Below are positions 48,520 through 63,878 of a stretch of 64,000 bases of DNA, piece by piece; within the stretch, counting starts at the first letter, position 1, and each line of letters opens with the position of its first letter. Made by a program: the position numbers and the translations under genes. This DNA comes from Lentisphaera profundi (GTDB lineage Bacteria > Verrucomicrobiota > Lentisphaeria > Lentisphaerales > Lentisphaeraceae), in the NCBI RefSeq assembly GCF_028728065.1, contig NZ_CP117812.1, forward strand, positions 2,232,001 to 2,296,000. Direction: 5' to 3'. The notes below the pieces were generated by a model that worked only from the letters and a program-made list of their open reading frames with translations, made no database searches and was not told the DNA's origin.

Positions 48520-48660
48520 ATTTTTTCCTATCTTTAATTTAAAAGTTATGACTTATTCACAGCCAAACTGAATTCCTTTCAAGTAAAATTAATTAAGTTT
48601 GAAATTTCCTGGGTACGCTGAGCACCAGCTCGGCCTTAGCTCAAAAACTAATCTTTAAAC
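48520..48660. other. Spacer with inverted copy of a REP-like hairpin
   Basis: GGGTACGCTGAGCACCAGCT at about 48610 is the inverted form of the CCAAGCTGGTGCTTGGCGTACCC hairpin unit seen near 8140. No gene is present. Confidence 0.5.
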
Positions 48661-48698
48661 TCAGGCCGAAGGCCGTCAACTCAGGCCGAAGGCCGTCA
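48661..48698 (-). repeat. Linker-hairpin array 1 (at the stop of the FecR-LamG gene)
   Basis: Two cores GGCC-TTC-GGCC with linker TGAGTTGAC on the minus strand. The FecR-LamG stop codon TGA forms the first bases of the array (TGACGGCC). Confidence 0.75.
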
Positions 48699-50225
48699 AT
48701 ACAAAGAATTCCTCTCCATCAGTCGCCGTACTTGTCGAGGCGTCACAGCTGCATTGATGATATATAGCTCATCGAGTTTAGCCCTCAAGAAAGATTTTGG
48801 TCCATCCATTTTGCGACCAAAGGCTACCGGCTTAGAAGCAATTGAATCAATATTTGTTCGTACCTTTTCTCCTTGACTTCCACTCACTGCTTCGAGACGT
48901 CCGTCGATATAATGTCGAATGTGACTGGCTACATCCGCATTATCTCCGCCAATAAACAAGCTCACTACATGATGCCAGCGTCCATCACGTAAATCCGTCT
49001 CACCAATGACATAGCCTTCTTTAAATTCAGTTCGTATTGCCCCCATAACACCATCCTTTGAGCGAGCATTCCAAGCAATCTGCCATTTCTGACCCTTTTC
49101 TCTACTATTTCCCCAAGAGACAAATGAATAATTTTCACCTTTTTTAGCATCCTTTGGGATCTTAATCCAGAACGATACTGTGCGTGGTCGTGAGCCCGAA
49201 ACTCCCTTAAAATTCGTAACTGCCCAATCATTGTCACCATCAAAATCCAGGGCATAACCAAACGCCCCCTCACTAAATTGTGGCCCTTCACTCTTTCCTT
49301 TAGTCATAAGCTCAGCCTTAAAGCGATCGTGAAACTCTCCTCCCGATGCTGTCGGAGTCCAATTAAACTCAGCCTCATTAAAAGGCCAATGTACATAGCT
49401 CAAATCTCTTTTTTCCAATAGATTCGGTAAAGAAGCCATTGGGGCTAAGGCCTTATGCTCAGATTGAATCAGGCCTGCACTTGAAATACTAATACGTTCA
49501 TTATCGATGAGCTTCCTGACATTTTCTTCTGCCATGGGATACACCTCTACTTCACCCTGAATAACTTCCACATCACTTAATCCCCGATCATCAATGCCCA
49601 CCATGAATTCAGTCCCCAAGTCCACAACTTTCCCTCCAGGAATATTCAATACAAAACCAACGGCAACCTGAGGTACATAAACACGAACTTTACCCTTACT
49701 TAAACGTACCCGATTAGAACTCTCCAATTCAAGTGCCGAATTGGCTTCAATATTTAATTCGACTCCAGAATCCAAGGTCAAAGCTAGTTTTTTATCAAAT
49801 ACATACGCGCCTTTCTTCAGCCAATCACCCGATGAATAAATCCCTTCTTCTGTAGAATTCACCCTCGCCAAAAACGGCTCTAAGACTGGCTCTGATGAAT
49901 CAGCATTCACAATAGTCTCAGCTTTTTGAGGACTCGAAACTTGCCAAAAAATTAAAGCTCCTAGAAAAATGGCCGCCATGGAGGCCACTCTATAAATAAA
50001 CGCTCTCGACGCGCTTTTATTGATGATTTTCTCGACTTCTTTTAAGTGGGGTTCAATTGCCTTTAACTGCTCGGAGGCATTCAAAATTTGACCCGTTTCG
50101 TAAAGGTACTCAACAAATTTTTTACTGCGCTGATCATCGCTTGCTAATAACTTTTTAAGCTCTTGTCGCTGATTTTCACTTAAGTCATCCCGTAAATAAG
50201 CTTCTGCTAACTTTTCAATATCCAT
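48696..50225 (-). CDS. FecR-type anti-sigma protein with LamG domain
   Basis: The 509-residue protein has a short cytoplasmic anti-sigma-like helical part (residues 1-75), a membrane helix (~78-97), a FecR domain (~150-235, with GKVVDLGTEFMVGI) and a C-terminal concanavalin A-like LamG domain (~290-505, FDGDNDWAVTNF, RTVSFWIKIP). It starts one base before the end of the ECF sigma gene. Such sigma/FecR-LamG pairs are common in Planctomycetes and Lentisphaerae and are thought to sense glycans and release the sigma factor; the adjacent sulfatases are likely targets. Confidence 0.87.
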   Translation of the reverse strand: MDIEKLAEAYLRDDLSENQRQELKKLLASDDQRSKKFVEYLYETGQILNASEQLKAIEPHLKEVEKIINKSASRAFIYRVASMAAIFLGALIFWQVSSPQKAETIVNADSSEPVLEPFLARVNSTEEGIYSSGDWLKKGAYVFDKKLALTLDSGVELNIEANSALELESSNRVRLSKGKVRVYVPQVAVGFVLNIPGGKVVDLGTEFMVGIDDRGLSDVEVIQGEVEVYPMAEENVRKLIDNERISISSAGLIQSEHKALAPMASLPNLLEKRDLSYVHWPFNEAEFNWTPTASGGEFHDRFKAELMTKGKSEGPQFSEGAFGYALDFDGDNDWAVTNFKGVSGSRPRTVSFWIKIPKDAKKGENYSFVSWGNSREKGQKWQIAWNARSKDGVMGAIRTEFKEGYVIGETDLRDGRWHHVVSLFIGGDNADVASHIRHYIDGRLEAVSGSQGEKVRTNIDSIASKPVAFGRKMDGPKSFLRAKLDELYIINAAVTPRQVRRLMERNSLY

Positions 50226-50764
50226 TAATCGACCTCCGGTAAATTCTCATAGCTACGCGTGCATTTACGCAATTGTTGACGGATACGACTCAACATAATA
50301 TAAATGGAATTCACACTGCGTTTATATTTACTTGCTAGATCTTCGGAACTCTCATGCCCCTGATAACTTGCACTCAATAATTCTAAGGAGCTTTCACTGA
50401 GTTTCGCCATACAATATTTTAAGGCTCGCCCCTGACTTTCTCTCCGTTGAATAAATTTTTCATCCACAAATTGACTCACCCTTTGCTCGATCAAATTAAG
50501 CAGGTCCTCATCTTGAAAAAAGCTCTCTTTCTTCCTGGATCGAATGATATTGAGACACTTGAATCTCACGATCCCTTTCACCCAAGGCAAAACGGCCTTA
50601 TCCTTTTCAAAACTCTCAGCTTTATGATTCACCGTAATCATCGCTTCCTGAACTGCATCTTGCGCCAAATCCCAGTCGCGCAGGATGCTATAAGCAAACG
50701 CCGTCAAAGCATTATGATGGCGAAAGACTTCTCTTAGTAAATCATCTCTAAAGGTTTGCTTCAT
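50225..50764 (-). CDS. ECF sigma factor (Rhodopirellula/Verrucomicrobium-type)
   Basis: The 179-residue regulator has region 2 (YSILRDWDLAQDAVQEAMI, VLPWVKGIVRFKCLNIIRSRK) and region 4 (SEDLASKYKRSVNSIYIMLSRIRQQL). It is coupled to the FecR-LamG gene by a one-base overlap. Its start codon lies only 7 nt from a 210-bp heptanucleotide tandem repeat, so the repeat occupies the region where its promoter and leader should be. In-frame extension into the repeat is blocked by a TGA. Confidence 0.9.
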   Translation of the reverse strand: MKQTFRDDLLREVFRHHNALTAFAYSILRDWDLAQDAVQEAMITVNHKAESFEKDKAVLPWVKGIVRFKCLNIIRSRKKESFFQDEDLLNLIEQRVSQFVDEKFIQRRESQGRALKYCMAKLSESSLELLSASYQGHESSEDLASKYKRSVNSIYIMLSRIRQQLRKCTRSYENLPEVD

Positions 50765-50771
50765 TTTTTTC

Positions 50772-50981
50772 AGTTCTCAGTTCTCAGTTCTCAGGTTTCA
50801 GGTTTCAGGTTTCAGGTTTCAGGTTTCAGGTTTCAGGTTTCAGGTTTCAGGTTTCAGGTTTCAGGTTTCAGGTTTCAGGTTTCAGGTTTCAGGTTTCAGG
50901 TTTCAGGTTTCAGGTTTCAGGTTTCAGGTTTCATGTTTCAGGTTTCAGGTTTCAGGTTTCAGGTTTCAGGTTTCAGGTTTC
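50772..50981. repeat. Heptanucleotide tandem repeat in the ECF sigma 5' region
   Basis: Three copies of AGTTCTC (50772-50792) are followed by 27 copies of AGGTTTC (50793-50981), with a single G to T change near 50933. On the minus strand it reads (CCTGAAA)n up to 7 nt from the ATG at 50764. An open frame through it (repeating FRFQVSG) is an artefact of the 21-nt coding period. Confidence 0.97.
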
Positions 50982-51119
50982 AGGTCTTAGGTTTTGTCAG
51001 GATTCATAATTTAAAATTTAAAATTCATAATTTACAATTGGAGCGTAGCGACTCTTTTACTATTCACCACTAAAACACAAAGCTTTCACTCATTCATAAA
51101 AAATTATCAAAAAAAAACA
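50982..51119. other. AT-rich spacer between two repeat arrays
   Basis: It holds a run of AATT-type motifs (TTTAAAATTTAAAATTCAT) and GGAGCGTAGCGACTC, a degenerate linker-hairpin core. No gene is seen. Confidence 0.5.
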
Positions 51120-51293
51120 CTCTCTCAGCCGAAGGCGGTCTCTCAGCCGAAGGCGGTCTCTCAGCCGAAGGCGGTCTCTCAGCCGAAGGCGGTCTCTCAG
51201 CCGAAGGCGTTCTCTCAGCCGAAGGCGGTCTCTCAGCCGAAGGCGTTCTCTCAGGCCGAAGGCCGTTCTCTCAGGCCGAAGGCCGTCAACTCA
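51120..51293 (-). repeat. Linker-hairpin array 2
   Basis: Nine units on the minus strand. Most are 18 nt with linker TGAGAGACC or TGAGAGAAC and core GCC-TTC-GGC; the outermost two have core GGCC-TTC-GGCC. The 5' end (minus) reads TTGAGTTGACGG and is not at any gene end. It lies between divergent sigma genes, about 110 bp upstream of the 51402 start. Confidence 0.8.
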
Positions 51294-51401
51294 ATAATTA
51301 AGAATTCAAAATTTATAATTAAAAATTATCCCCTCCTAACTTGTACTCATTCCGCTTTATGGTCATTTATACGCCGACTAGAGATAACTACTGGAAACTG
51401 A

Positions 51402-51986
51402 ATGGATAATTGGAACACACGACAAACCTTGCTCATGCGAGCAAAAAACCCCGATGACCAAGCGGCCTGGGAAGAATTTGTTGCCTATTACAAGGGCTTT
51501 CTCAAAGTCGTCATCTATAAAATCAATCCAAGTACTGCCCTCTCAGAAGATTTCCTGCAATCCGTACTCCTAGAAATTTGGCGCAGCCTCCCACGTTTTG
51601 AAGTTGATGTCGAGCGCGCTAAATTCCGCACCTGGCTCTCTGTCTTAGTGCGCAACACCGTGCTCAATCAAATCAAAAAAGAACAGAAGCAAAATAAGAT
51701 CCGCAAAGAACTAGAGCCCCATATTCAGCCCAGCGAACCCGAACTCGATCAAATGGTTCAGCGCGAGTGGGAACTTCATATTTCCCGCTTAGCATTAGAA
51801 AACATCAGCAAAAGATTTACGGGCAAAGCCATGGAGGTCTTCAACATGTCGCTCCAAGGTCAAAGTATCGGCTCTATTTGTAACGAACTAGAGCTCACCC
51901 CTGAATCTGCCTATACATTAAAGAATAGAGTGAAAAAATATCTCGTTCGCGAAATCAAACGACTGCGCAGTGAATTAGAGCAATGA
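51402..51986 (+). CDS. ECF-type sigma factor paired with a kinase (second copy)
   Basis: The 194-residue protein is clearly paralogous to the sigma factor at 25036: both begin with WNTRQTLLMRAKNP or a close variant and share AWEEFVAYYKGF, KFRTWLSVLVRNTVL and a region 4 helix-turn-helix (IGSICNELELTPESAYTLKNR). The following kinase gene overlaps its stop by 4 nt, so the pair is co-translated. Control by phosphorylation is inferred from family precedent, since no anti-sigma protein is encoded. Confidence 0.88.
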   Translation: MDNWNTRQTLLMRAKNPDDQAAWEEFVAYYKGFLKVVIYKINPSTALSEDFLQSVLLEIWRSLPRFEVDVERAKFRTWLSVLVRNTVLNQIKKEQKQNKIRKELEPHIQPSEPELDQMVQREWELHISRLALENISKRFTGKAMEVFNMSLQGQSIGSICNELELTPESAYTLKNRVKKYLVREIKRLRSELEQ

Positions 51987-54169
51987 ACCCCCAAGTTGAA
52001 AATACCGACGAAGACTTACTGCACTCCCTTTTTGCAGAGAGTTGTGAAGACGAAGTTCAGGAAGCACTCGAAGACAATCCCTTCTTTCTCAATTTACAGG
52101 AAAACCAAAAGCGCTATAGCTCACATGAATTGATTGCCTCAGGTGGCATGAAAAATATCTACAAAGTTTTTGATAAAAAAACTGGCCGCCATATTGCCTT
52201 AGCTCGGCTAAAGGACGAAATCCCCGTAGAAGCCTACGAAGCTTTTTTACTCGAAGCCAGGCTCACCTCCCTACTCGAGCATCCCAATATCATTACCGTT
52301 CACGACATTGGCATTAATCACGATGGCAAACCCTACTTTACCATGGAACTCAAAATCGGGGATTCCCTAAAAACTATTATTAGTTCCATTCAGAATCAGC
52401 AAGGCAATTATAAAGAAAAATTCACCCTCCATGAATTGCTCACGATCTTTAGTAAAATTTGTGACGCGGTTTCCTACGCTCATTCACGCTCAGTCATTCA
52501 TTTGGATTTAAAGCCCGGCAATATTCAGATTGGCAGTTTTGGCGAAGTACTCGTCTGCGATTGGGGCCTAGGAAAAGTCATTGGTCATAGCACTTTCGAT
52601 AATTACGAAGACCTTGCCCTCAATCCAGATTTTCTTAATGACATCACCCTCACTGGTCAAATCAAAGGCACCCTCGGCTTTATGGCCCCTGAGCAAGCTG
52701 AAAAAAATGGTGCCAAAACTCCCTTGTGCGACATCTATGCACTGGGTGCTATTCTCTATAGCCTACTCTCGCATCATCCACCTATTGAAGGTTCCAAGGA
52801 TGAAATGCTCAAGCTCACAAAACTTGCGGAAATAGAACCACTCCGTCACAATAGCTTTGGTGACAATATCCCTCAGAGTCTCGCCGCGGTCGCCACTAAA
52901 GCGCTTTCCCTCGATCCCAAGCAGCGTTATCAAAGTGCTTTTGAAATACGTCAAGAAATCGACCTTTTCCTCAAGGGCTTTTCCACCAAAGCCGAACAAG
53001 CTAGCCTCGGCAAAGAATTCCACTTATTCATTAAACGTCATGCCATTTCTTGCTCACTCGCCTTAGCCTTTCTGATCACTGCTCTAATCGGTACCAGTAT
53101 TTTTATTAGAAATCTCAATACGAGTGTCAAAAATGAATTACATGCCCGCGAGATAGCCGAACGTGAAAGTCAGAAAAGTCGTGAATCACAAATGATTGCA
53201 GAACGAGAGAGCCAGCGCAGCCTAGAGGCTTTAGCAATGGCAGAAAGAGCACGCAATCGCAGTAAAGAAGCCATGCTGCTTTTCGAAACCCAGCAGCAAA
53301 AAGCAGAAAAAGCCCTCAGTCTTTATGAGAAAGAAAAAGACTCCCGCAATGACTATGTTCGCGACCTCAGCAAAAAATTCATGGTCCATATCTATAAACT
53401 CACTGATGTCGATGTCTTCACTTCTCCCGTTCAATCCTTAGAACTCGCACTCAAGACTATTTCTCAAATGGAGCACGATCAAAAAGATGCCATTCCAGTA
53501 ATTTTCCTCCAACAAAAGGGCTACATCCAATTCATTATGCAAAACTTTGCGGACGCCGCACAATGCGAATCATCTTTTCCTCAAGTGAAAGCAATGGCCG
53601 CGCTCTGCCTCGATCTTCCTCGTGAAAATAATTTACTTAGGCCCCAAGCCTTTTCCGAATTCTTTCAGCTTTGCTCAAGGGTCCGCTATGGCCACTTCGC
53701 ACCACACATGGCCAGTAAAATGCTCGCTTACGACGGCAGTAAACGCAAAAACATTAAGCACCATAGTCAATTTGTCCATGAGCTCATTAAATTTAGAAAT
53801 CACAATTGGAAAAATGGCCTTTTTGAATTCGATCCCAAAAGCAAACACCTCAAAATATCGGGAAAGAAACTCATCACTATTGGTGCCGTTTATAGCGACC
53901 ACCGCACCGGCTACAAAAACGTTTATTTCTCCTACTTCAGCTATTTAGGACTCCAATCTCTCGATCTCAGCCATAGCGACTTCTTCAAACTCGATGAAAT
54001 CCAAAACCTCAAAATAACCAAGCTCGATATTTCCCATACCCTAGTAACCAACCTACGTCCCCTCGCTGAACTCGCCCGCCTCCAAGAACTCGTCATCAAC
54101 TACGAACAATTCCCCAACAAAACTCTCCAAAACATCCCCTCACATATAAAGATCACCTTTGTTAAATAA
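51983..54169 (+). CDS. Transmembrane Hanks-type kinase with C-terminal LRR (second copy)
   Basis: The 728-residue protein is organised like the 22705 kinase: kinase domain (~45-335), membrane helix (~354-375), a Glu/Arg-rich coiled coil with repeated ERESQxS units (~385-445), a helical part and a short leucine-rich end (LQSLDLSHSDFF, LDISHTLVTNLRPLAELARL). It lacks the CBM-like domain. It shares the atypical residues GGMK, Ala at the beta-3 Lys position (IALARL), HLDLKPGN and DWG. The TAA stop is the first codon of linker-hairpin array 3. Cognate sigma factor directly upstream. Confidence 0.87.
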   Translation: MNPQVENTDEDLLHSLFAESCEDEVQEALEDNPFFLNLQENQKRYSSHELIASGGMKNIYKVFDKKTGRHIALARLKDEIPVEAYEAFLLEARLTSLLEHPNIITVHDIGINHDGKPYFTMELKIGDSLKTIISSIQNQQGNYKEKFTLHELLTIFSKICDAVSYAHSRSVIHLDLKPGNIQIGSFGEVLVCDWGLGKVIGHSTFDNYEDLALNPDFLNDITLTGQIKGTLGFMAPEQAEKNGAKTPLCDIYALGAILYSLLSHHPPIEGSKDEMLKLTKLAEIEPLRHNSFGDNIPQSLAAVATKALSLDPKQRYQSAFEIRQEIDLFLKGFSTKAEQASLGKEFHLFIKRHAISCSLALAFLITALIGTSIFIRNLNTSVKNELHAREIAERESQKSRESQMIAERESQRSLEALAMAERARNRSKEAMLLFETQQQKAEKALSLYEKEKDSRNDYVRDLSKKFMVHIYKLTDVDVFTSPVQSLELALKTISQMEHDQKDAIPVIFLQQKGYIQFIMQNFADAAQCESSFPQVKAMAALCLDLPRENNLLRPQAFSEFFQLCSRVRYGHFAPHMASKMLAYDGSKRKNIKHHSQFVHELIKFRNHNWKNGLFEFDPKSKHLKISGKKLITIGAVYSDHRTGYKNVYFSYFSYLGLQSLDLSHSDFFKLDEIQNLKITKLDISHTLVTNLRPLAELARLQELVINYEQFPNKTLQNIPSHIKITFVK

Positions 54170-54316
54170 GTTCACGAAGCAGAGCTTCTGAGTTGACGGC
54201 CTTTGGCCTGAGTTAACGGAACAAGTTCCTAAGTTCACGGCCTTTGTCCTGAGTTGACGGAACAAGTTCCTGAGTTGACGAAGCAGAGCTTCTGAGTTCA
54301 CGCGCTTTGCGCTGAG
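54167..54316 (+). repeat. Linker-hairpin array 3 (begins at the kinase stop codon)
   Basis: Seven units follow the TAA, which is itself the start of linker TAAGTTCAC. Cores in order: GAAGC-AGA-GCTTC, GGCC-TTT-GGCC, GGAAC-AA-GTTCC, GGCC-TTT-GTCC, GGAAC-AA-GTTCC, GAAGC-AGA-GCTTC, GCGC-TTT-GCGC. Linkers TGAGTTGAC, TGAGTTAAC, TAAGTTCAC, TGAGTTCAC. Only one core has a mismatch. Confidence 0.88.
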
Positions 54317-54341
54317 TAAGTAGTAAGTAGTAAGTAGTAAG
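54317..54341. repeat. TAAGTAG heptanucleotide repeat
   Basis: Three and a half copies of TAAGTAG directly after array 3: another repeat with a 7-nt unit. Confidence 0.85.
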
Positions 54342-54613
54342 AGAAAACCACCGATAAATCGCTGCGCTCTAATTTTAAATGTTTAATTCTCAATTTTAAA
54401 TATCTAAATCTGTTTCAGCTGTAAAATCTCTGCTCAAACTTTCCGTGGATTCAGTGCTTTCCGTGGTTCAATTCTTTACTCTTTAGCAATTCGTTTCATT
54501 CGTGGTTACTTGCTCTACACCATTAAAAATTCAACATTCACAATTTAAAATTATTTCATCTGTACGATCTGTGGTTTAACTCTTATTTCTATACTTAACC
54601 AAGTTCTTGGCAT
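54342..54613. other. Non-coding repeat-rich spacer
   Basis: AT-rich AATT motifs (54366-54410, 54525-54555) and short recurring phrases (CCGTGGTTCAATTC, TTCGTGGTTAC, TCTGTGGTTTAAC) are seen, with one degenerate core (TCGCTGCGCT). No gene is supported. Confidence 0.55.
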
Positions 54614-54733
54614 CTTCTCAGGCCAAGGGCCGTTCTCTCAGCGCAGCGATCTTGAAGCCTAGCGATCTTTCAGCCTAGCGATCTTTCAGCCTAGCGGTCC
54701 TGAAGCGTAGCGGTCCTGAAGCGTAGCGGTCCT
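54614..54733 (-). repeat. Linker-hairpin array 4
   Basis: On the minus strand units carry cores GC-TAC-GC, GC-TAG-GC, GC-TGC-GC and GGCC-CTT-GGCC with linkers such as TGAAAGATC and TTCAGGACC. It faces array 3 across the same intergenic region. The following 54734-54957 holds one more AATT cluster and the leader of the pseudopilin operon. Confidence 0.7.
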
Positions 54734-54957
54734 AAGCTGCTCCCATCATTAAAAATTTAGAATTCAAAATTAATCATTAAAGCGCAGCGCCCGCCCCCTT
54801 AACTTTTTTTAAAATGACTATTTTAATTTTTCAAAGTGCTTTTTTTACACTTTTCTATCACTCACTCCTGCTCAAGCACTTAGCTTGGCACTTGTTTGCA
54901 AGAAGCTTTAATCTTATATTTTAGACAGTTCAGATCTTATATCAATTGAGGATTTCT

Positions 54958-55509
54958 ATGTCCAGTAAAACTTTTAAAAACCATTTCTCACTCATTGAGT
55001 TGCTTGCAGTGATTGCCGTCATGTCCATGCTCATTGCTATTGTCGGTGCCGCCATGAAGCCCAATCCCGTCAATGCTGCAGCCCGCGAACTCTCGGGCAC
55101 TATTTCCAAAGCACGCTCCTACGCCCTGTCTAAAAGAGTTTATACCATAGTGCATATCACTAAACAAGAAGATAAGTTTTCACAGATCGAGCCAATCAAA
55201 ATCTACACAGCACTAACCCCCTCAGTTATTGCAGGCAGCCCGGATACCATCCCTGGATCCACGACCATATACCTTAATAAAGGTGCAAAACTTGATTCCG
55301 GGTCACAAGAAGAGTTCTACTTATGCTTCCATCCAAATGGTGGCATATTACTAGATACGGTAACAGACACATTAACTACTGCCAATGGCGACCGAATTGC
55401 AACTTCTGACGGCAAGTATGTTATAGACATCATTAAACGTGGTAAAACAGAAGAATTGAGAACCCTCTCAATTAATAAATTTACTGGCATGGTTTCATTC
55501 GAGGATTAA
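54958..55509 (+). CDS. Prepilin-like protein (resembles Verru_Chthon cassette protein D)
   Basis: The 183-residue product begins at the ATG at 54958, preceded by TTGAGGA; the in-frame TTG at 54946 is part of that ribosome site. It has a type IV prepilin leader, NHFSLIELLAVIAVMSMLIAI, with Glu at +5 after the cleavage site. The rest is a GspH-like globular part. It is the first of four prepilin-like genes; size and order match the Verru_Chthon D-B-C-A cassettes described in Verrucomicrobium and Chthoniobacter, whose function is unknown. Confidence 0.8.
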   Translation: MSSKTFKNHFSLIELLAVIAVMSMLIAIVGAAMKPNPVNAAARELSGTISKARSYALSKRVYTIVHITKQEDKFSQIEPIKIYTALTPSVIAGSPDTIPGSTTIYLNKGAKLDSGSQEEFYLCFHPNGGILLDTVTDTLTTANGDRIATSDGKYVIDIIKRGKTEELRTLSINKFTGMVSFED

Positions 55510-55511
55510 TT

Positions 55512-56213
55512 ATGATAAAAAAACATTCATTCACTATGGTCGAAGTGATCATTGCTTTAGGCATACTTACTATTGCTATGTTCACCCTTGTTGGCTTACT
55601 CCCTGCAGGACTTCAAAACTCAGAAGAAACTGAACACTCGACTCACGCCCCTCTTGTAGCTAAAACAGTAAATAACTTCTTGGCTCTTTTAGTTAACGGG
55701 GATGACAATTCAACTATTGATGGGGCTTGGAATGGTGGCAACAGTGGTGATGCTGACGGATATGACTCATGGCTACAAAACTACAACTTAGTCACAGAAA
55801 ATCGTACTAATTACACCACATCAAAAGACTCTGAAGCCTTCAGTACTGCTACCGACTTAAAACAAGGCGACTTTTCTGGTGCTGCCATGATACTTCCTAA
55901 TGGTGGTGATTACACTCGTGATCCATCACTCAAAAATCTCACTCTATTCAAACAAAGTAATCTACTCTATGGTGGCTACTATGAGGACACTGTTGACGGT
56001 GTGGTCAATGTACAATACGGGATTAGAATCTGGAACGGTCAACTCGGCATGAATACAACCGCAGGTCAAGGTAACGCTATTTTTACACCACAAGCGAGCG
56101 ATACTGGAGTTCTTTTCACTATAGAAATTTCCTGGCCTCCACAAATGGAGTACCAGCGTCGCATTGCTATGGGCAATTATTATCAATTGGTTACGTACGT
56201 GGAGAAGCACTGA
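55512..56213 (+). CDS. Prepilin-like protein (resembles Verru_Chthon cassette protein B)
   Basis: The 233-residue product has leader KKHSFTMVEVIIALGILTIAMF and a Gly/Asp/Asn-rich body (NGDDNSTIDGAWNGGNSGDA, EISWPPQMEYQRR at the end). It resembles GspI/PilV-like minor pseudopilins in the first 40 residues only. It lies 2 nt after the preceding gene and overlaps the next by one base. Confidence 0.78.
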   Translation: MIKKHSFTMVEVIIALGILTIAMFTLVGLLPAGLQNSEETEHSTHAPLVAKTVNNFLALLVNGDDNSTIDGAWNGGNSGDADGYDSWLQNYNLVTENRTNYTTSKDSEAFSTATDLKQGDFSGAAMILPNGGDYTRDPSLKNLTLFKQSNLLYGGYYEDTVDGVVNVQYGIRIWNGQLGMNTTAGQGNAIFTPQASDTGVLFTIEISWPPQMEYQRRIAMGNYYQLVTYVEKH

Positions 56214-57001
56214 TGAAAAAATATACCCTAATTGAACTGCTTGTGGCCATGGGCATCTTTGCTTTCATGATGTTGCTACTTATGAATTTTTTCAGTATCT
56301 CAACGGATTTATTGGGTCGTGAAACCAATCGTGCTGTAAGCAATTATGAAGCGGGAATTTTTCTTAGCATGATCAAAACAGACTTAGAAAATAGTACGAT
56401 TAATGCAACTTATCAATGGGCATATAAAGATGGCGGATCGGGTTCGGGCCCAGGAACTAATTTGAATAATATAGAAAATCAAACACAAGCTGGCTCCGGT
56501 ATCTCAACTGATTCAGCACTAAGATTCTTTTCCTATACTTATGATAATGATGGAGCCATAAGTAGTTCAACTCGTGTTCAAATCAGTTATGTATATGATA
56601 GTGCTAATTATCGCATTTACCGTTTTGCCTATCCTATAGTTACCGTACCTATAGATTTCGATGACTTAGAAAACTTGAGTAATAATTATGGTGGCATCAT
56701 CCTGGAAGGAGTAGAAGAATTTCGTCTAATGATTTATGGGAATTATGCCACACAAGAAGATTATGATTATACCCCTGGTAGTACTTCAATTCCAAGCACT
56801 AGCTCTGATGGCTCCTTCTATACCGCTGCAGAAGACGCCTCTGCCGCCACTGGTCAAAGCACTGACCCGGACCTCATTAATGTTTATTTGAAAATAAACG
56901 ATAAAAACACCCTTGAGCTTCCTGCTAGCGTGGGAAAAACAAACCAACTATTACAAAGACGACGTCAACTATCCACCCAGATACCGATGGCATATAATTA
57001 G
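56213..57001 (+). CDS. Prepilin-like protein (resembles Verru_Chthon cassette protein C)
   Basis: The 262-residue product starts MKKYTLIELLVAMGIFAFMM, a prepilin leader with E at +5, and has a GspJ-like body. A C-terminal IYLKINDKNTLELP-type strand (INVYLKINDKN) and QLLQRRRQLSTQIP end the protein. One-base overlap with the upstream gene shows translational coupling. Probably a minor pseudopilin. Confidence 0.78.
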   Translation: MKKYTLIELLVAMGIFAFMMLLLMNFFSISTDLLGRETNRAVSNYEAGIFLSMIKTDLENSTINATYQWAYKDGGSGSGPGTNLNNIENQTQAGSGISTDSALRFFSYTYDNDGAISSSTRVQISYVYDSANYRIYRFAYPIVTVPIDFDDLENLSNNYGGIILEGVEEFRLMIYGNYATQEDYDYTPGSTSIPSTSSDGSFYTAAEDASAATGQSTDPDLINVYLKINDKNTLELPASVGKTNQLLQRRRQLSTQIPMAYN

Positions 57002-57010
57002 GAGTATCAT

Positions 57011-59695
57011 ATGAAAAAATTACTAAACAACCGATTCCAAAAAGATGACTCCGGAATTGCCATCATGTTCTCTCTTATGATGCTGGCTGTATTTCTTGTC
57101 TTAGGAATGGGTTTCTCGGCTTATATGACAAATATTCGGCGTGGTGCTGAATTCCAAAAAGACCTCTATTTAAATGATGGTGTTGAAAAGGTAATCCTTG
57201 CCCAAGTAACCGCTGCGATAAAAGGTTTCTTTAGCCCTATTTCAGATTCATCCATAGAGTACTATAATTCGATACCTGAAGCTTCTTCAAGTTTTTTTGG
57301 CGATGCCACCTTTGAGCAAGTGACTCCGGCTACTGGCAATGATGAAGATCATGTATTTAAAACCTGGGGCATTGACAATACTGATGCTAATATTGCAAAC
57401 TCCCTAGTCAACCTCAATTGGATTAACACTCAAGACAACGCCGAAATAGATACCAATTTCAAAGGAAGTTTTTCCTCTCCCACAGGGGCAGACCTTGGCT
57501 GGCAAGAACATAAAGTTAATTCTAACAATGCGAACGACCCCAATTACGCTATTTCTAATTGGTTTATAATTGGTATGTCTGGAAGGCTTGATCCTTTAGT
57601 TTATGATTCCGATTCTGGCTACGATGAACGTGCCCAAGCTGACGACATATCTAAAATAAATCTAAGTAACATAGTCATTGATCCCACTCATGCTAATAAC
57701 TTAACTTCAAAAGATACTGGTGATGTCAACCGTTGGACTAGCCTCACCGATATACATGAGAAGATGCTTGATGGTGGCATCACTAATGACACTGCTTATT
57801 ATGCTTTTTTCCCTATTGATTCGGGAACTAACAGTGACACCAATGAAACACTTGATGGCTCAACAATCCCCACGACTACTGATAAGTCAGGATTAATTAG
57901 TCCTAATGCACTTTTCAACTTAACCAATGTCGCAACATCAACCCCTAATGTCATCGTAAGTTCTATACCTTACCTTAACAATGGAACATTAACTACTGAA
58001 CAAAAAATTCAAATCGCTGCTAATATCCGAGACTATTGCGACCCAGACGACAATGCCGAGAGTGACTATACTACGCCAACCGGGACTCCACCGACATATG
58101 TAGGAAATGAAAAAGTCCCTTACTTAAATAAACTTGTGATTGATTTGGTCGGCTCATGGGGCGACTATGACACCGACGGCGGAAATGACTTCTTAGGCTA
58201 TAAATTAGGCTTTTATGGTGAATTAATTGACTTATATGCATCATCAAAAGCTTCTCAAATGTTAGTGACATTTACAATTAATATTGAAGATGGAGCAAGT
58301 AATACACTTGTGGACGAGAGCTTAAGCCAAACCGCTACAATTAATTTTTCTGCATCCGGTGCAGCGGCTTATATAACAGCAACCACAGCTTTAACTAACT
58401 CTGATTTAGTCAAGGATGTCAGTGGACAAAGTGCAACAGCAAGAATTACCATCACTAACCTTATTTTATTGGACTCAGGAGGATCAAACCTCTATGATTA
58501 TGCTAATATTAATGATAAATGGCCAGATCTTTTCATTGACAATGGAAATACTTTCTCCGTCTCAACTGAGTGTATCGAACCTAAAAATAACCTTTCCACT
58601 TCATCTTGGGAGTTTATTAGCACTCCTGGGGGCGGATATGGTACGGGAGCAGGCAACACTTTTAAAACAGGGCAAAAAAATGACACATGGGCTACCGCAT
58701 ATGCGGCAGTTGCAAACGACCAAAAAGACTATGAGCCTCAAGCATTAGTTAGTGGTGACCCTTTAGATCTCTCTACTAATTACATAAGAAACAATTCTAT
58801 ACAAAATCTTCATGAACTTGGTTATATACATAGATCAATTAATTACCAAACACTCAACTTAATTGAATACAATACTGGAAGTGAAGATGCCTATTTTGGC
58901 CAAGGGGATAACCTCCCTGACTTACCTGGCATTGCAAATTACTCTAATTCTGGAACTGATCAACTGTACACATCTAACTCAGCTAGCGGTGGCGACAGTG
59001 GGGAAGATGCCTCATGGAGCTCAACTGTAACTCTCTCTGATGGTGGTGACAGATCCATACTAAACTATGTAAGTATAGATGGTGCTGAGGAATCAGTTAA
59101 CACCCAAGGCCTCATCAATCCAAATACTTCTCACCCCCACGTCCTAGTAGCACTCTTCTCTGATTTACAAGCTTATCACCCTCACTTAAATGGCCGAGTC
59201 GGAGACCTAGCTGCCGTTTCTAACAAAACAACACAAGATGAAATCACCCAAACTGAATTATATTCCCTTTTAAATCTTTTCCCAGGAATTGATCCTAGTA
59301 ACTACAATAGCTACCCAAGTACGCCTCCTAGTGAAGGATATTTTGATGCCTTTTGGTTTAAAAATCGTGTTAATAACCCACCCAGCTACGGTATTCCTTT
59401 CAAAAAATCCTTAGAAGCAGGCATATTAAATGATAGACAAGCCGAAGTCCTACTCTGTAATACTAGACGATTTGTTAGCGCTAATCGCAACACCTATATT
59501 GGAGCTCTCAGAGCGCGTATTGCAGAAAACATTACTTTAGCTGGAAGTGATATTGCCGACCCGTATGTTGGAGGAGGATCAGAAACTCTAAAACAATTTT
59601 ATTTATTTCGTGAATTAATTGATATTAACTCCACCCCACATAACCCGTCCGATGATATATACCGTGTGAGAACCTTTAAAGAAGTGACCCGTTGA
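57011..59695 (+). CDS. Large GspK-like surface protein (resembles Verru_Chthon cassette protein A)
   Basis: The 894-residue protein starts with DDSGIAIMFSLMMLAVFLVLG, a hydrophobic stretch like that of PilX/GspK-type pseudopilins but without the Glu at +5. The very long rest is rich in Asn, Asp, Ser and Thr, has few Cys and no recognised domain, as expected for an extracellular structural protein. A conserved end (RVRTFKEVTR) and an inner segment (LNDRQAEVLLCNTRRFVSANRN) may be family marks. It is the last of the four cassette genes; the next gene overlaps by one base. Confidence 0.75.
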   Translation: MKKLLNNRFQKDDSGIAIMFSLMMLAVFLVLGMGFSAYMTNIRRGAEFQKDLYLNDGVEKVILAQVTAAIKGFFSPISDSSIEYYNSIPEASSSFFGDATFEQVTPATGNDEDHVFKTWGIDNTDANIANSLVNLNWINTQDNAEIDTNFKGSFSSPTGADLGWQEHKVNSNNANDPNYAISNWFIIGMSGRLDPLVYDSDSGYDERAQADDISKINLSNIVIDPTHANNLTSKDTGDVNRWTSLTDIHEKMLDGGITNDTAYYAFFPIDSGTNSDTNETLDGSTIPTTTDKSGLISPNALFNLTNVATSTPNVIVSSIPYLNNGTLTTEQKIQIAANIRDYCDPDDNAESDYTTPTGTPPTYVGNEKVPYLNKLVIDLVGSWGDYDTDGGNDFLGYKLGFYGELIDLYASSKASQMLVTFTINIEDGASNTLVDESLSQTATINFSASGAAAYITATTALTNSDLVKDVSGQSATARITITNLILLDSGGSNLYDYANINDKWPDLFIDNGNTFSVSTECIEPKNNLSTSSWEFISTPGGGYGTGAGNTFKTGQKNDTWATAYAAVANDQKDYEPQALVSGDPLDLSTNYIRNNSIQNLHELGYIHRSINYQTLNLIEYNTGSEDAYFGQGDNLPDLPGIANYSNSGTDQLYTSNSASGGDSGEDASWSSTVTLSDGGDRSILNYVSIDGAEESVNTQGLINPNTSHPHVLVALFSDLQAYHPHLNGRVGDLAAVSNKTTQDEITQTELYSLLNLFPGIDPSNYNSYPSTPPSEGYFDAFWFKNRVNNPPSYGIPFKKSLEAGILNDRQAEVLLCNTRRFVSANRNTYIGALRARIAENITLAGSDIADPYVGGGSETLKQFYLFRELIDINSTPHNPSDDIYRVRTFKEVTR

Positions 59696-60195
59696 TGAAA
59701 AAAATTATCTATACATTAGTGATATTACTAAGTTCCCAGCTATTGGCTCAAAAAAACATGAAAATTGCATATTCCGATAACCAACTTGAGCAACTGAAGG
59801 CTCTAGAGTTTTTTGAATATAACTATGTGAAAAAAGCAAAAAAAGAATTAACTGAAGTAAAAAAAACTATCACTAAATACGAACGTGGTCTCGCTAAACT
59901 AGCTAAAAAATCTAAAGTCTATAAAACTCGATATGCCGAATTAAAAGAACTCAAAAACGAAGAGAAATCTCACAAAATATTAATACTATACCCAAGTATC
60001 TATACTAAGGCCATTGATTTTTACGTAGCAAATAACTTTGTCGAGCAACAAAAGCACATGAAATTAAAAATGGAACTAGAGAAACAATACAAAGAATTAT
60101 CTAAAAAAGACTTCCCCAATATTGCAGGTGAATATAGCCTATACAAAAAGGGAAAAAAACGCAAACCCTCTAAACGCACGGCCTCTTCAAAGTAA
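59695..60195 (+). CDS. Secreted coiled-coil protein of unknown function
   Basis: About 166 residues from the ATG at 59695, which overlaps the preceding stop by one base. A signal peptide (MKKIIYTLVILLSSQLLAQ) is followed by a mostly Lys/Glu-rich coiled coil and a basic end (KKGKKRKPSKRTASSK). No family is recognised. Its place in the prepilin operon suggests an exported accessory protein. Confidence 0.7.
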   Translation: MKKIIYTLVILLSSQLLAQKNMKIAYSDNQLEQLKALEFFEYNYVKKAKKELTEVKKTITKYERGLAKLAKKSKVYKTRYAELKELKNEEKSHKILILYPSIYTKAIDFYVANNFVEQQKHMKLKMELEKQYKELSKKDFPNIAGEYSLYKKGKKRKPSKRTASSK

Positions 60196-61121
60196 TGCTC
60201 AGAGTTTTAGTTTTTTTTCTATGCTTGAATGTTTGGTCCCAAGGCAGCTTAACTGAAAGCTGTCTTTTTGATTTTGCGCAGGGCATTAAGGCTCAAACAC
60301 TCATTGGCCAAGAAGATCAGTACACAAGCCTTCAACAGCCCCTAGAACGTGCCCAAAGGCTCCATAGTCGCAAAGCGGTCGCTATCAAAAATTACTTGCG
60401 CAAGGCGCAAAACTCCATCGTAGATTTCAGTACTAAGGAAAAAGAACTTCTCAATCAAGCTTCCGCAGAATTGGCCGAGACTTTCAAAGCTTACAAGCTC
60501 GACTTCCCCAAGAAAATCTATTATCTGAAGACTAACGGCAAAGAAGAAGGCGCGCCCTACACACGTAAAAACTTCATCGTTTTCCCTGACTCGAGCCTCA
60601 AAAAAAACTTAGCTGAACTCAAAGAATTACTCGCTCATGAGCTCTTTCATATCCTCAGTCGTTATCATCCCGACTTAAGTACCGAGCTCTACAAAATTAT
60701 TGGCTTTCATTATTGTGGCACCATCAAAGAATCACCCGAACTCAAAGCCATTCGCATTACCAACCCCGACGCCCCTCTGTACCAACACTACATCATGCTC
60801 AAAGACAAGAAGGGTAAAACTTTCCCCGCCATTCCCTTTTTACATCTCAAAATCAAATCACTCAAAGAAGTCGATGATCATTCCGTCTTTCGTCACATGC
60901 AGCTCAGCTTTGTCAAAATTGATTTAAAAAAGCTAAGTACCCTCGGCCCCATTATCCCCGTAGAAGCTATTGCACCCTCACTCTTTAAACAAATTGGTGA
61001 TAATACCCATTATATCATTCACCCCGAAGAAACTATCTCAGATAACTTCGCACAAATCATGTGCGGCATCCCAGCAAAAACCCCCAGGATTCACCATGAA
61101 ATCAAGTCGACGCTACGCTGA
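60195..61121 (+). CDS. Secreted HExxH metalloprotease-like protein
   Basis: The 308-residue protein has a signal peptide (ends ~residue 16) and a zinc-protease motif H148-E-L-F-H152 (LLAHELFHILSRYHP), typical of M-type gluzincins; E or H further on as third ligand cannot be assigned by eye (candidates in HPEETISDNFAQIM). It is the last gene of the prepilin operon, coupled by one base, and could process the exported large protein. Its last codons and stop (CGCTGA) fall in linker-hairpin array 5. Confidence 0.75.
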   Translation: MLRVLVFFLCLNVWSQGSLTESCLFDFAQGIKAQTLIGQEDQYTSLQQPLERAQRLHSRKAVAIKNYLRKAQNSIVDFSTKEKELLNQASAELAETFKAYKLDFPKKIYYLKTNGKEEGAPYTRKNFIVFPDSSLKKNLAELKELLAHELFHILSRYHPDLSTELYKIIGFHYCGTIKESPELKAIRITNPDAPLYQHYIMLKDKKGKTFPAIPFLHLKIKSLKEVDDHSVFRHMQLSFVKIDLKKLSTLGPIIPVEAIAPSLFKQIGDNTHYIIHPEETISDNFAQIMCGIPAKTPRIHHEIKSTLR

Positions 61122-61258
61122 GTTTACGGCCTAAGGGCCTGAGTTTACGCTACGCTGAGTTTACGGCCTAAGGGCCTGAGTTTACGCTACGCTGAGTTGA
61201 CGAAGCAGAGCTTCTGAGTTTACGGCCTAAGGGCCGGAGTTGACGCCAACTAGTTGGC
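61112..61258 (+). repeat. Linker-hairpin array 5 (begins inside the protease gene)
   Basis: The first core GCTACGC ends the coding sequence, and linker TGAGTTTAC begins with the stop codon TGA. Later cores: GGCC-TAAG-GGCC, GC-TAC-GC, GGCC-TAAG-GGCC, GC-TAC-GC, GAAGC-AGA-GCTTC, GGCC-TAAG-GGCC, GCCAAC-TA-GTTGGC. Confidence 0.88.
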
Positions 61259-61307
61259 TAAGAAAAACAAAGTCTTAAACCACCGATCCTACGGATTTAA
61301 ATATATA

Positions 61308-61547
61308 TTCTCAGCGCGAAGCGCGTATTCTCAGCGCGAAGCGCGTATTCTCAGCGCGAAGTGCGTAAACTCAGGCCAAAAGCCGTTCTTTCAGCGTAGC
61401 GGTCTTTCAGCGTAGCGGTCTTTCAGCGTAGCGGTCTTTAGCGTAGCGGTCTTTCAGCGTAGCGGTCTTTAGCGTAGCGGTCTTTAGCGTAGCGGTCTTT
61501 CAGCGTAGCGGTCTTTCAGCGTAGCGGTCTTTCAGCGTAGCGACTCA
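61308..61547 (-). repeat. Linker-hairpin array 6 (ends at the usp stop codon)
   Basis: On the minus strand the array starts with the usp stop TGA (TGAGTCGCTACGC), runs through about ten 16-nt units (linker TGAAAGACC, core GC-TAC-GC, some shortened), a GGC-TTTT-GGCC unit and three 20-nt units (TGAGAATAC, GCGC-TTC-GCGC; one has GCAC). It faces array 5 in the same convergent intergenic region; the 50 bp between them holds no gene. Confidence 0.86.
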
Positions 61548-62426
61548 TTTCACAACCAAAATATCAATTTTCGCATCGTGAATTATATGCCTCACCGTAC
61601 TGCCCGTAATCATTTTCTCGATATTGTGATTAGAAGAGGAACTAACGACAATCAATTCCGCCTTAGTTTCTTCTGCAAATAGATGTATTTGTGCGGAGGG
61701 ATCACCAAAGCGTACATGATGTGGGTAACGCTCTGGCTCGATATTCAGTAAATTATAGAGGCGCCTAAATTGCTGCTCAGCCTCTTTCCGGAATACATCA
61801 TCCGTAATTTGTGTGACACCATCATTGGAACTGAGGTAGCCATCAAAATCAGAATAGTTGATCACCTCGGGCAAAACGTGAATGAATTCTAAGTCCGCTC
61901 CCGTCTGTTGCGCAAATAGCAAAGCTTGAGCCGCCGCTTTTTGACAAGCAGCAGTAAAATCTACCGGGCATAAAATACGTTTTGGTATCCCCGTAAAAGC
62001 CTTATCGGGATGAATCCATACGGGGCCCTCGGCATATTTCACCAGGCGTTCGGCGTGGCTTTTGCCCAACATGTGCATAAAACCCGTACTATGACGGCCT
62101 ATAACAATCAGTGAATTCCCTATTTTTTTTGCAATGCTCGCAAGCTCTTTGGCGGTATTGCCCACACTAATGAGTGGTGCCTCAATCTTGTGATGGCCAT
62201 TATCGGGATAAAGATGCTGAATTTCATCACTTAACTTTATCATTATTTTATCTAAAACTTCATCTGTAGACTTGGGATGCAGCAACTTCACACTGAGGGG
62301 CTCTATGATGTGTACTGGATAAATTAATGCACCAAAAAGCTGACTTAATTTTTGCGCTTCTCGCACAGCTAAACTGAATTGTTTTTTGGAAGTGACGCCC
62401 ACTATGATTGTTTCGATATTTTTCAT
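61545..62426 (-). CDS. Tandem universal stress protein
   Basis: The 293-residue protein consists of two UspA domains (about 1-145 and 147-293). The first ends IVIGRHSTGFMHMLGKSHAERLV and has a nearly normal ATP-binding G-2X-G-9X-G spacing in its Gly residues. The second has VVSSSSNHNIEKMITGSTVRHII, where the first Gly positions are replaced, so it may not bind ATP. It is likely cytoplasmic and stress-linked. Single gene, read toward array 6. Confidence 0.9.
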   Translation of the reverse strand: MKNIETIIVGVTSKKQFSLAVREAQKLSQLFGALIYPVHIIEPLSVKLLHPKSTDEVLDKIMIKLSDEIQHLYPDNGHHKIEAPLISVGNTAKELASIAKKIGNSLIVIGRHSTGFMHMLGKSHAERLVKYAEGPVWIHPDKAFTGIPKRILCPVDFTAACQKAAAQALLFAQQTGADLEFIHVLPEVINYSDFDGYLSSNDGVTQITDDVFRKEAEQQFRRLYNLLNIEPERYPHHVRFGDPSAQIHLFAEETKAELIVVSSSSNHNIEKMITGSTVRHIIHDAKIDILVVK

Positions 62427-62822
62427 CTTTAAAGCTCCTCGTTTTCCTCAATTTATTACATGGAGAATTCAAATACAAAAAAACACCCTCTCCAAAGACT
62501 TAATTTACATAGATTTGTACGCTTCTTAAAAAACACAGAAAACTTATCCGCTGCTAAGCAGCACCAAATGTGCATTCTTTTTATCAAAAATCTTTACCAT
62601 TTATTAATCGCTACCTATTTCCTTGCCTAATAAAACAGGTTATAATCTATACTAATTTGTAAAATCTTACTTGATGAAAAGTGCTCACGTCACTTTTCAT
62701 GCGGAGCCTGCCTGGCTTTTGCTTCGCAAAAGAATGATCAATTTTAAATACACAATTTTTAATTAGAAGCAACAGCGAGTAGTTCAAACTTGGCAGTCAT
62801 CAGCTTAAACCATCTACTACAA
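62427..62822. other. Divergent spacer between usp and cysQ with dyads
   Basis: It holds ATGAAAAGTG-N7-CACTTTTCAT (about 62673-62701) and CTTTTGCTTCGCAAAAG (62717-62733), then an AATT cluster. Upstream motifs TTGCCT/TATAAT (TTATAATC at 62641) could form a promoter. No gene is seen. Confidence 0.4.
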
Positions 62823-63028
62823 TCAGGCCATAGGCGGTCTCTCAGCCGTAGGCGTTCTTTCAGCGCAGCGTTCTTTCAGCCGTAGGCGTTCTTTCAGCGC
62901 AGCGTTCTTTCAGCCGTAGGCGTTCTTTCAGCGCAGCGTTCTTTCAGCGCAGCGTTCTTTCAGCGCAGCGTTCTTTCAGCCGTAGGCGTTCTTTCAGCCG
63001 TAGGCGGTCTTTCAGCGTAGCGTTCTTT
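62823..63028 (-). repeat. Linker-hairpin array 7 (upstream of cysQ)
   Basis: About a dozen units on the minus strand: linkers TGAAAGAAC and TGAAAGACC, cores GC-TGC-GC (10 or fewer), GCC-TAC-GGC and one GC-TAC-GC. Unlike most arrays it lies between divergent genes; its 5' end (63028) is not at a gene end, and its 3' side runs 35 bp from the cysQ start in the leader position. Confidence 0.82.
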
Positions 63029-63062
63029 CTTCTTTAAACCTCACAATAACGAAACTCTATTC

Positions 63063-63806
63063 ATGATAAACGACATAATAAAACTTGCCCGTGAAGCCGG
63101 CGCTAAGATCATGGAGATCTATGCCACTGACTTCGAAGTTTACACCAAAGACGACAAATCTCCCCTTACTGAAGCCGACCAAGCTGCTAACGCAATCATT
63201 TGTGCTGGCTTGCAAGAACTCACTCCAAATATCCCCATCCTCTCTGAAGAAAACAAAACCATTGATTACGCGGATAGAAAAGATTGGACTCAAATGTGGG
63301 TTGTAGATCCCATTGATGGCACCAAAGAGTTTATCAAAAAAAATGGTGAATTCACTGTGAACATCGCCTTAGTAGAGCGCGGCATACCCATTGCCGGCGT
63401 TGTTTATGCTCCTGCCATTGATGATCTTTATTGGGCAGATGAAACGGGTGCCTATAAAAATGGCGATAAATTACCTCTCACGACTAATAACACACCAGAA
63501 AAAGCTCTGACCATTGTGGCCAGCCGCTCACACATGTCTCAAGAAACTCAAGATTATGTCGACTCACTCAAAGCCGGTACCGAATCAATTGAACTCACTT
63601 CTGTGGGTAGCTCACTCAAACTCTGCTACGTTGCCGAAGGCAAAGCGGACCAATACCCTCGCCTCGCCCCCACCATGGAATGGGACACGGCTGCCGCTCA
63701 CGCCGTCGCCCTTCAGGCAGGCAAGGAAGTTCTCGATTTCAAAACACGCAAGCCTCTGCAGTACAACAAAGAAAATCTTCTCAACCCCTGGTTCCTGGTA
63801 AAGTAA
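63063..63806 (+). CDS. cysQ: 3'(2'),5'-bisphosphate nucleotidase
   Basis: The 247-residue enzyme converts PAP/PAPS to AMP/APS in sulfate assimilation, or acts as an inositol monophosphatase-family member. Motifs: DKSPLTEADQAAN (metal/substrate loop), LSEEN (E62-E63), VVDPIDGTKEF (D82-D85) and MEWDTAAAHAV with the last Asp. No signal peptide. Its TAA stop starts linker-hairpin array 8. Confidence 0.94.
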   Translation: MINDIIKLAREAGAKIMEIYATDFEVYTKDDKSPLTEADQAANAIICAGLQELTPNIPILSEENKTIDYADRKDWTQMWVVDPIDGTKEFIKKNGEFTVNIALVERGIPIAGVVYAPAIDDLYWADETGAYKNGDKLPLTTNNTPEKALTIVASRSHMSQETQDYVDSLKAGTESIELTSVGSSLKLCYVAEGKADQYPRLAPTMEWDTAAAHAVALQAGKEVLDFKTRKPLQYNKENLLNPWFLVK

Positions 63807-63878
63807 GGAAGAACGTTCACGAGTGAACTTAAAGTAGAAAGATCGCTGCGCTTAAAGAACGGCGTGACGCCTGAAAGA
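63804..63878 (+). repeat. Linker-hairpin array 8 (begins at the cysQ stop codon)
   Basis: After TAAGGAAGAAC come the cores GTTCAC-GA-GTGAAC, GC-TGC-GC and GGCG-TGA-CGCC with linkers TTAAAGAAC and TGAAAG. It ends 6 nt before the next gene's start. Confidence 0.75.

Follow-up and report, generated by a model that had tools for sequence, protein, structure and literature searches.

Arrays of DNA mini-hairpins joined by a near-constant linker in Lentisphaera suggest repeats copied by shape rather than by sequence

We examined a family of repeat arrays in a 64,000-nt stretch of the Lentisphaera profundi genome (contig NZ_CP117812.1, positions 2,232,001 to 2,296,000; hereafter the window), where an earlier note, made from the letters alone, had described eight arrays in which a 9-nt linker close to TGARNNNMC alternates with self-complementary cores of freely varying sequence. 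The arrays are real, unusual, and both more widespread and more rule-bound than that note saw. They vary in sequence and keep their stems, grow in tandem, share modules, replace one another and are dispersed with one linker. Together these observations suggest repeats that are copied by shape rather than by sequence. We give a probability of about one half to the reading that they form a family of tandem mini-repeats in which a near-fixed linker joins DNA mini-hairpins set by their fold, spread by copying at the DNA level and kept where they are harmless.

All eight arrays were found again at the coordinates first given or a few bases off. Five were recovered by a parser that looks for chains of at least three TGARNNNMC linkers (unit length 16-22 nt), two more were called by Tandem Repeats Finder (48658-48699 and 54634-54737), and the eighth, at 63804-63878, was recognised by eye only. 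The linker grammar fits, with the variants TAAGTTCAC, the 8-nt TAAAGACC and, in the array at 54614-54733, TTCAGGACC. What the first description missed is a rule for the loops, a boundary at stop codons, neighbouring 7-nt arrays and further units past the end of the window. The family continues just outside it, with arrays of GCTACGC and other units at 2296260-2299576 and 2338717-2339809 of the same contig.

The source genome (G000) consists of two contigs, C1 and C2, the latter holding the window, and totals 5.46 Mb. Extracted genome-wide, as the earlier note had proposed, the two-unit pattern CTGARNNNMCG-core-CTGARNNNMCG gave 76 matches (12 forward, 64 reverse) and its reversed version, used as a control, none. 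An earlier pattern with a fixed-length core and a single kind of linker gave 0 matches in this genome and 1 in the control. The matches are clustered, near 0.86, 1.33 and 2.39 Mb on C1 and at 2.28-2.34 Mb on C2, and the three-linker parser found no array in twenty 20-kb stretches of the window's replicon. The linker is on the minus strand in 64 of the 76 unit pairs, and the sampled GC skew is negative at the C2 cluster and at the 2.39-Mb cluster of C1; a link with replication direction is possible. A link with the replication terminus was rejected, since the sampled skew of C2 changes sign at 1.3-1.4 and 2.5-2.6 Mb, which places the window in mid-arm.

Core self-complementarity, which the earlier note proposed to compare with shuffled controls, is far above chance. 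The search patterns themselves demand G and C at the core ends, and in the shuffle test these were held fixed, the inside of each unique core being shuffled 5000 times. Tandem duplication means that units are not independent, and counts of unique cores are therefore given beside counts of copies. Perfect stems were formed by 12 of the 15 unique hand-listed cores of the window (null mean 1.0, maximum 5), by 18/25 in the whole genome (null mean 1.6, maximum 7) and by 35/52 in a pool of three Lentisphaera species and a relative of the same class but another family, G023 (null mean 3.7, maximum 11); with at most one mismatch allowed, the pooled count rises to 49/52, against 18 in the shuffles. Lentisphaera marina IMCC 11369 (G001) taken alone gives a weak result (6/8, null mean 1.7, maximum 6). 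This excess over shuffled cores shows that the self-complementarity is real. The count of two mismatched stems first reported was too low: the hand list of the window holds three, and one mismatched core, GCCCTTCGTGC, is amplified elsewhere in the genome, where it is present in 9 copies. Cores recur across different arrays, tandem runs of a single unit occur, and some cores, such as GCGCTAAGTTCC, look like hybrids. CRISPR-like spacers were considered and discarded, as the cores are palindromic and recur in different arrays.

The loops obey a rule of their own. Most three-base loops read GNA on the strand opposite the linker and are usually closed by the C-G pair of a G-C-rich stem. Among copies with perfect stems and three-base loops, GNA was read on either strand in 46/51 (L. 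profundi), 21/21 (L. marina), 58/68 (the third Lentisphaera, G002) and 7/7 (G023), together 132/147, of which 124 lie opposite the linker; counted by unique core, the figure is 16/22. In the Bacteroidota family Paludibacteraceae, whose arrays are described below, 143 of 172 such copies are GNA, all of them opposite the linker (24/46 by unique core), and closure by T-A occurs in some cores. The background, taken from 13,221 triloop palindromes in 768 kb of other L. profundi DNA, is 11%. Four-base loops in Paludibacteraceae read GNNA in 12 of 20 copies; the third place is a pyrimidine in seven of the nine unique GNNA loops, so that these are not of the RNA-type GNRA. Some cores of this family, such as GTTTCAC, have only one G-C and one T-A pair. 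Unique cores with a single mismatch have 13 A.C and 5 G.T on the linker strand; a predominance of G.T wobble on the GNA strand is suggestive only.

For three-base loops this agrees with a published fold rule. DNA mini-hairpins that have at least two G-C pairs and whose loop reads GNA or GNNA are described as extraordinarily stable in vitro and nuclease-resistant, with a melting temperature of 78 °C for GCGAAGC (PMC4686876), and d(GCGAAGC) and its like follow the same rule as most three-base-loop cores here. They are known from oligonucleotide chemistry and aptamers and, in the available part of that source, are not presented as a genomic repeat family (PMC4686876).

Among 39 genomes, the window's own included, only the three Lentisphaera carry the two-unit pattern in abundance (76, 27 and 161 matches). 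G023 has seven matches and one array, and the remaining nine positive genomes have 1-3 matches each, about the control level. A linker-free pattern, three GCGNAGC words spaced 8-10 nt, is a more independent test of likeness between lineages than the linker pattern. Of 387 genomes searched in the phylum, 27 had matches: 17, 13 and 43 in the three Lentisphaera, 21 in G737 from another family, 14 in G617 from the same class as Lentisphaera, 5 in G580, 2 in G585 and one in each of the others. Its reversed control was not empty (33 matches in G002, 3 in L. marina); the units of one G002 locus, L397, hold both the word and its reverse, which would explain these matches. The linkers of G737 are TGAAGGTAC, TGAGAGTAC and TGAAGGTTC, and the first two fit TGARNNNMC, which the search did not require. 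In G617 the hairpins GTGC-GCA-GCAC and GCGC-GAA-GCGC are joined by 6-nt linkers. A G617 locus, L401, carries a different type of array, with longer direct repeats and GTGCGCAGCAC and GCGCGAAGCGC hairpins after a terminator-like hairpin. Mini-hairpin arrays with a TGGTTGAGA-like linker were seen at L415 (G585) and in a viral-contig record, L427. Phage as a vehicle was set aside: no viral contig held a triple array with TGAAAGACC, and the linker-free triple occurred in nine records, none of which shows TGAAAGACC by eye.

A contig scan across phyla gave at least 120 matches, mostly chance or coding repeats; among the matches listed, those kept as real were L. marina and four Paludibacteraceae from rumen or horse (G039-G042), the latter with linker TGAAAGACC and palindromic cores. 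One of these four, L139, was kept by eye, having failed the two-core filter, and L119, L125 and L135 are among other matches that passed this filter and were not taken into the set. In G039 to G042, respectively, the linker pattern gave 8, 5, 4 and 37 unit pairs, and its reversed control 0 in every one of them. In G042 the linker TGAARGACC stands at dozens of dispersed sites with many different cores. The fetched loci of this family hold 214 cores of 83 types, of which 69 have perfect stems with loops of at most 5 nt (null mean 26, maximum 35 in 2000 shuffles). The linker is near-constant, mainly TG[AT]A[AG]GACC, and the cores span GCTTCGC to GCAGCCAAAGGCTGC; 15-nt cores such as GCTCACTTCGTTCGC show, several times, a symmetric TC/TC mismatch in an otherwise paired stem. 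The outer ends look constant by eye (GACCG and CTGAAAGA), a trait that the site pattern itself demands. In a sample of 295 Bacteroidales genomes, 43 had a match, with 31 in G042, 5 in the next highest and a reversed control reaching 17 in one genome; the trait is thus patchy.

Many of these arrays lie within genes. Of 76 fetched Paludibacteraceae sites, 49 are inside open reading frames (ORFs; here frames from stop to stop, 200 codons or longer, in which 50 codons flank the site on each side). The loci were picked for their arrays, 17 of the 76 sites are single-unit matches and some belong to orthologous pairs, so that the figure does not give the rate across whole genomes. The linker strand is antisense at 42 of the 49 and sense at 7. 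Read off the sequence, the GNA strand of a typical unit is stop-free in all frames, and the bias is what selection for in-gene survival, with the stop-free strand as sense, would give. The host genes named by Pfam are five: PheT, an Era-type GTPase, a class I tRNA synthetase, a SpoU methylase and a MutS-domain-V protein. The array in pheT occupies a loop that is variable among the 29 relatives shown, none of which carries the array. Rickettsia palindromic elements are likewise palindromic inserts tolerated in frame within protein genes; they are longer and sequence-conserved, and are not mini-hairpin arrays.

The arrays also turn over. The same intergenic regions of the three Lentisphaera hold different arrays: upstream of a sigma-factor-like gene, L. 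profundi has about nine GCCTTCGGC-type units, G002 about a dozen of GCGCTACGCGC type and L. marina three, and L. marina can carry (AATTTTG)n where the other two have hairpin arrays. The sigma-factor-like protein of the window belongs to a large family, with 56 matches in L. marina and 66 in G002. Between its Usp and inositol-monophosphatase-family genes, L. marina has repeats of about 40 bp rich in ATTAAAAATTCAACATTCACAATT (L249:8800-9100). In Paludibacteraceae, a hairpin array of G039 corresponds by eye to a degenerate 7-nt repeat at the orthologous site of G041, and an in-ORF four-unit hairpin array of G041 to (TTTTCGA)n in G039.

At some orthologous sites of both phyla, 7-nt arrays thus stand in place of hairpin arrays, and period 7 is in excess around the latter. 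Among perfect tandem arrays with three copies or more and periods 4-12, counted in loci that were picked because they hold hairpin arrays, period 7 accounts for 15/21, 8/14, 4/5 and 10/12, and 768 kb of other L. profundi DNA holds one period-7 array. Two 7-nt arrays lie in the window. The first, at 50768-50994, reads TGAAACC / TGAGAAC on its reverse complement and looks like a core-less 7-nt linker: its TGARAMC resembles the TGARAGAMC found between many hairpins. The second, AGTAAGT at 54315-54341, adjoins a hairpin array. A close known parallel is the TAACTGA heptanucleotide repeats reported from Beggiatoaceae, Cyanobacteria and Bacteroidetes, which are gene-adjacent and patchy across phyla, like the 7-nt arrays here (PMC4679880). 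Rotated, TAACTGA is TGATAAC, close to the window heptamer TGAGAAC, and the window array stands just upstream of a start codon as those repeats do (PMC4679880). No hairpin cores are described for them in the available text, where the string 'palindrom' occurs 0 times (PMC4679880); unlike this core-less type, the hairpin arrays here have units of 16-22 nt, and true 7-nt arrays adjoin them.

Tandem homogenisation, hybrid-looking cores and the period-7 excess would all follow from neutral replication slippage at microsatellite-like sequence, with palindromes as the shape that slips best and no spread between loci. We consider this highly improbable as a full account, since linker and cores recur at many unlinked loci in Lentisphaera, G023 and Paludibacteraceae, which calls for convergence or for copying from one locus to another.

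In the window, the hairpin arrays and the first 7-nt array are arranged among the genes as follows.

48661..48698, minus strand: two units, GGCCTTCGGCC, starting at the TGA stop of ORF 48696-50225 (minus strand; FecR and Laminin_G_3 domains).
50768..50994, minus strand: 7-nt array (TTTCAGG)n, which on its way towards ORF 50225-50764 (minus strand) ends a few bases short of the start codon, on the upstream side.
51120..51293, minus strand: hairpin array with linkers TGAGAGACC / TGAGAGAAC and cores GCCTTCGGC and GGCCTTCGGCC (parser), upstream of the Sigma70_r2-domain gene 51402-51986.
54167..54316, plus strand: seven linkers and several core types (parser); the TAA that ends the protein kinase gene 51983-54169 also opens the first linker.
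54614..54733, minus strand: variant linkers TGAAAGATC and TTCAGGACC, cores GCTACGC, GCTAGGC, GCTGCGC and GGCCCTTGGCC (units by eye).
61112..61258, plus strand: cores GCTACGC, GGCCTAAGGGCC, GAAGCAGAGCTTC and GCCAACTAGTTGGC (parser); the first TGA is the stop of ORF 60195-61121, and one core lies upstream, within this ORF.
61308..61547, minus strand: GCTACGC units with linkers TGAAAGACC and TAAAGACC, then GCGCTTCGCGC-type units (parser), starting at the TGA stop of the Usp-domain gene 61545-62426 (minus strand).
62823..63028, minus strand: GCCTACGGC mixed with GCTGCGC, linker mostly TGAAAGAAC (parser), between divergent genes.
63804..63878, plus strand: degenerate array (units by eye) with core GTTCACGAGTGAAC, 8 nt past the TAA that ends the inositol-monophosphatase-family gene 63063-63806, followed by GCTGCGC and GGCGTGACGCC.

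The stop codon is a recurrent boundary. Of the 38 array groups of Lentisphaera, 16 follow a gene on the same strand that ends at most 100 nt upstream. In 14 of these the first core begins 3-9 nt past the stop, although two of the 14 also have a core ahead of it; in the other two groups the distance is 15 and 23 nt. The first linker usually opens with the stop codon itself, be it TAA, TAG or TGA. With the window arrays at 48698 and 63804, placed by eye at 1 and 8 nt past a stop, 16 of 18 lie within 1-9 nt. The Usp and inositol-monophosphatase-family genes have, by eye, a palindrome right after the stop in all three species, with differing sequences. Such placement is what would be expected if RNA hairpins were selected at transcript 3' ends, as terminators, for protection of the mRNA end or for an effect on the ribosome at the stop, and kept paired by compensatory mutation, as has been hypothesised for repetitive extragenic palindromic (REP) elements. 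We nevertheless regard this explanation as unlikely. The other 22 groups lack such a stop, some being continuations of a group counted before and the rest standing elsewhere between genes, stems can be as short as 2 bp, a mismatched core was amplified, Paludibacteraceae arrays lie within ORFs, some orthologous sites carry hairpin-less 7-nt arrays, and the GNNA loops of Paludibacteraceae are mostly not of the GNRA type.

REP elements are also close to these arrays among known repeats. They are defined by GTAG or CGTC tags and, like the arrays here, are small palindromes in many copies, often downstream of coding regions, sometimes within genes, and suspected to be mobile (PMC3733652). A gene for a REP-associated tyrosine transposase (RAYT, of the Y1 type), flanked by the repeats, goes with them. 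Neither tag occurs in the units parsed here, where the hairpin stands between a linker whose last letters are AC or CC and a TGA, the cores are free in sequence and the arrays run head to tail with a 9-nt linker. REPs are predominantly extragenic and downstream of genes; here, 16/38 Lentisphaera groups follow a same-strand stop within 100 nt and 49/76 fetched Paludibacteraceae sites are intragenic.

A mobile element, in which a nuclease or transposase recognises the linker and moves hairpin-linker units, as hypothesised for RAYTs and REPs, would explain one linker with differing cores at dozens of dispersed G042 sites, the fit of the G737 linkers to the grammar in a linker-free search, the patchy distribution in Bacteroidales and the constant-looking outer ends. 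We hold it to be doubtful. The Y1 transposase family PF01797 has 0 matches in G042, G039 and G617 and weak ones, 1 and 2, in G040 and G041 (incomplete metagenome-assembled genomes); L. profundi has 17, and none of the eight loci scanned has an array within 1.5 kb. With no match in array-rich G042 and no array near the eight L. profundi loci scanned, a RAYT seems not to be required. No target-site duplication was shown, and unit number varies as in slippage.

Copying at the DNA level is favoured over RNA selection because the fold rule is known from DNA chemistry, a mismatched core has been amplified, arrays are tolerated within genes and 7-mers replace hairpins. According to the earlier note, either the hairpins are under selection or palindromes are made by some copying mechanism. 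The second option is better supported, by the nine-fold mismatched core, the 49/76 in-ORF sites and the different or 7-nt arrays at orthologous sites; the first fares worse, yet is possible for the post-stop arrays of Lentisphaera.

In the copying process that we propose, the active form would be single-stranded DNA. Mini-hairpins would fold in it, the polymerase would pause and slip by one unit, and the array would grow in tandem. A template switch within a hairpin would recopy one arm from the other, so that both stem arms change and the linker stays. Array pieces would reach new loci through the copying of nuclease-resistant single strands or through an enzyme, the linker serving as shared homology or recognition sequence. 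One and the same process would yield both hairpin and 7-nt arrays, advancing over about 7-9 nt of unpaired template and taking no account of folded hairpins. Arrays would persist only where harmless: after stops, between genes and, in the stop-free orientation, in protein loops. One step has a published precedent, as template switching at quasipalindromes creates and repairs perfect stems and can, like the process envisaged here, change both arms together by one mechanism; in the part of that work available to us it is not described as giving tandem arrays with a constant linker (PMC8794818).

Several points weigh against this reading. Slippage alone leaves one linker at many loci unexplained. 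The linker shared across phyla came from a pattern that favours such linkers, and as this pattern allows 256 of them, the identity of TGAAAGACC could be chance; among the four other lineages with multiple linker-free matches (G737, G617, G580 and G585), only G737 fits the grammar. The stop-codon boundary of Lentisphaera may be functional and reflect an RNA function, and four-base loops there do not follow GNNA (2/24 copies). Standard DNA nearest-neighbour folding of five array stretches, with parameters that may lack a special GNA term, gave no extra stability (z from -1.4 to +2.9), which speaks against a simple argument from stability. In the orthologous array pairs compared, no insertion with an exact empty site was found; three pairs at 96.0-98.6% identity have identical arrays and two at 77-79% are already replaced. 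With a single genome from each species, a change of both arms would not be visible as one event.

The earlier statement that no named repeat family has this design is uncontradicted. An Rfam scan of the window at the gathering threshold returned rRNA and tRNA matches only, and literature searches on such repeats, on Lentisphaera and on the mechanism, largely outside subscription journals, found no hairpin arrays with a fixed linker and free cores. We place the family among small palindromic repeats, with a fair chance that it belongs to a different category altogether. A bolder version, tentative and less probable than not by a wide measure, is that of selfish DNA recognised by fold alone: nuclease-resistant single-stranded mini-hairpins with a near-constant linker would spread within and between phyla, enter even essential genes and vary freely in sequence, since each arm would be recopied from the other, and the 7-nt arrays would be what this machinery makes without hairpins.

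A repeat family is as a rule defined by its sequence; what is conserved here is a DNA fold known from work on oligonucleotides, and the sequence is largely free. If the copying reading is true, covariation in stems, which is commonly read as proof of RNA selection, can come from copying, and natural genomes contain hundreds of replicate records of it. It would also tie hairpin repeats to the excess of 7-nt tandem repeats and make the mechanism testable in a laboratory strain.

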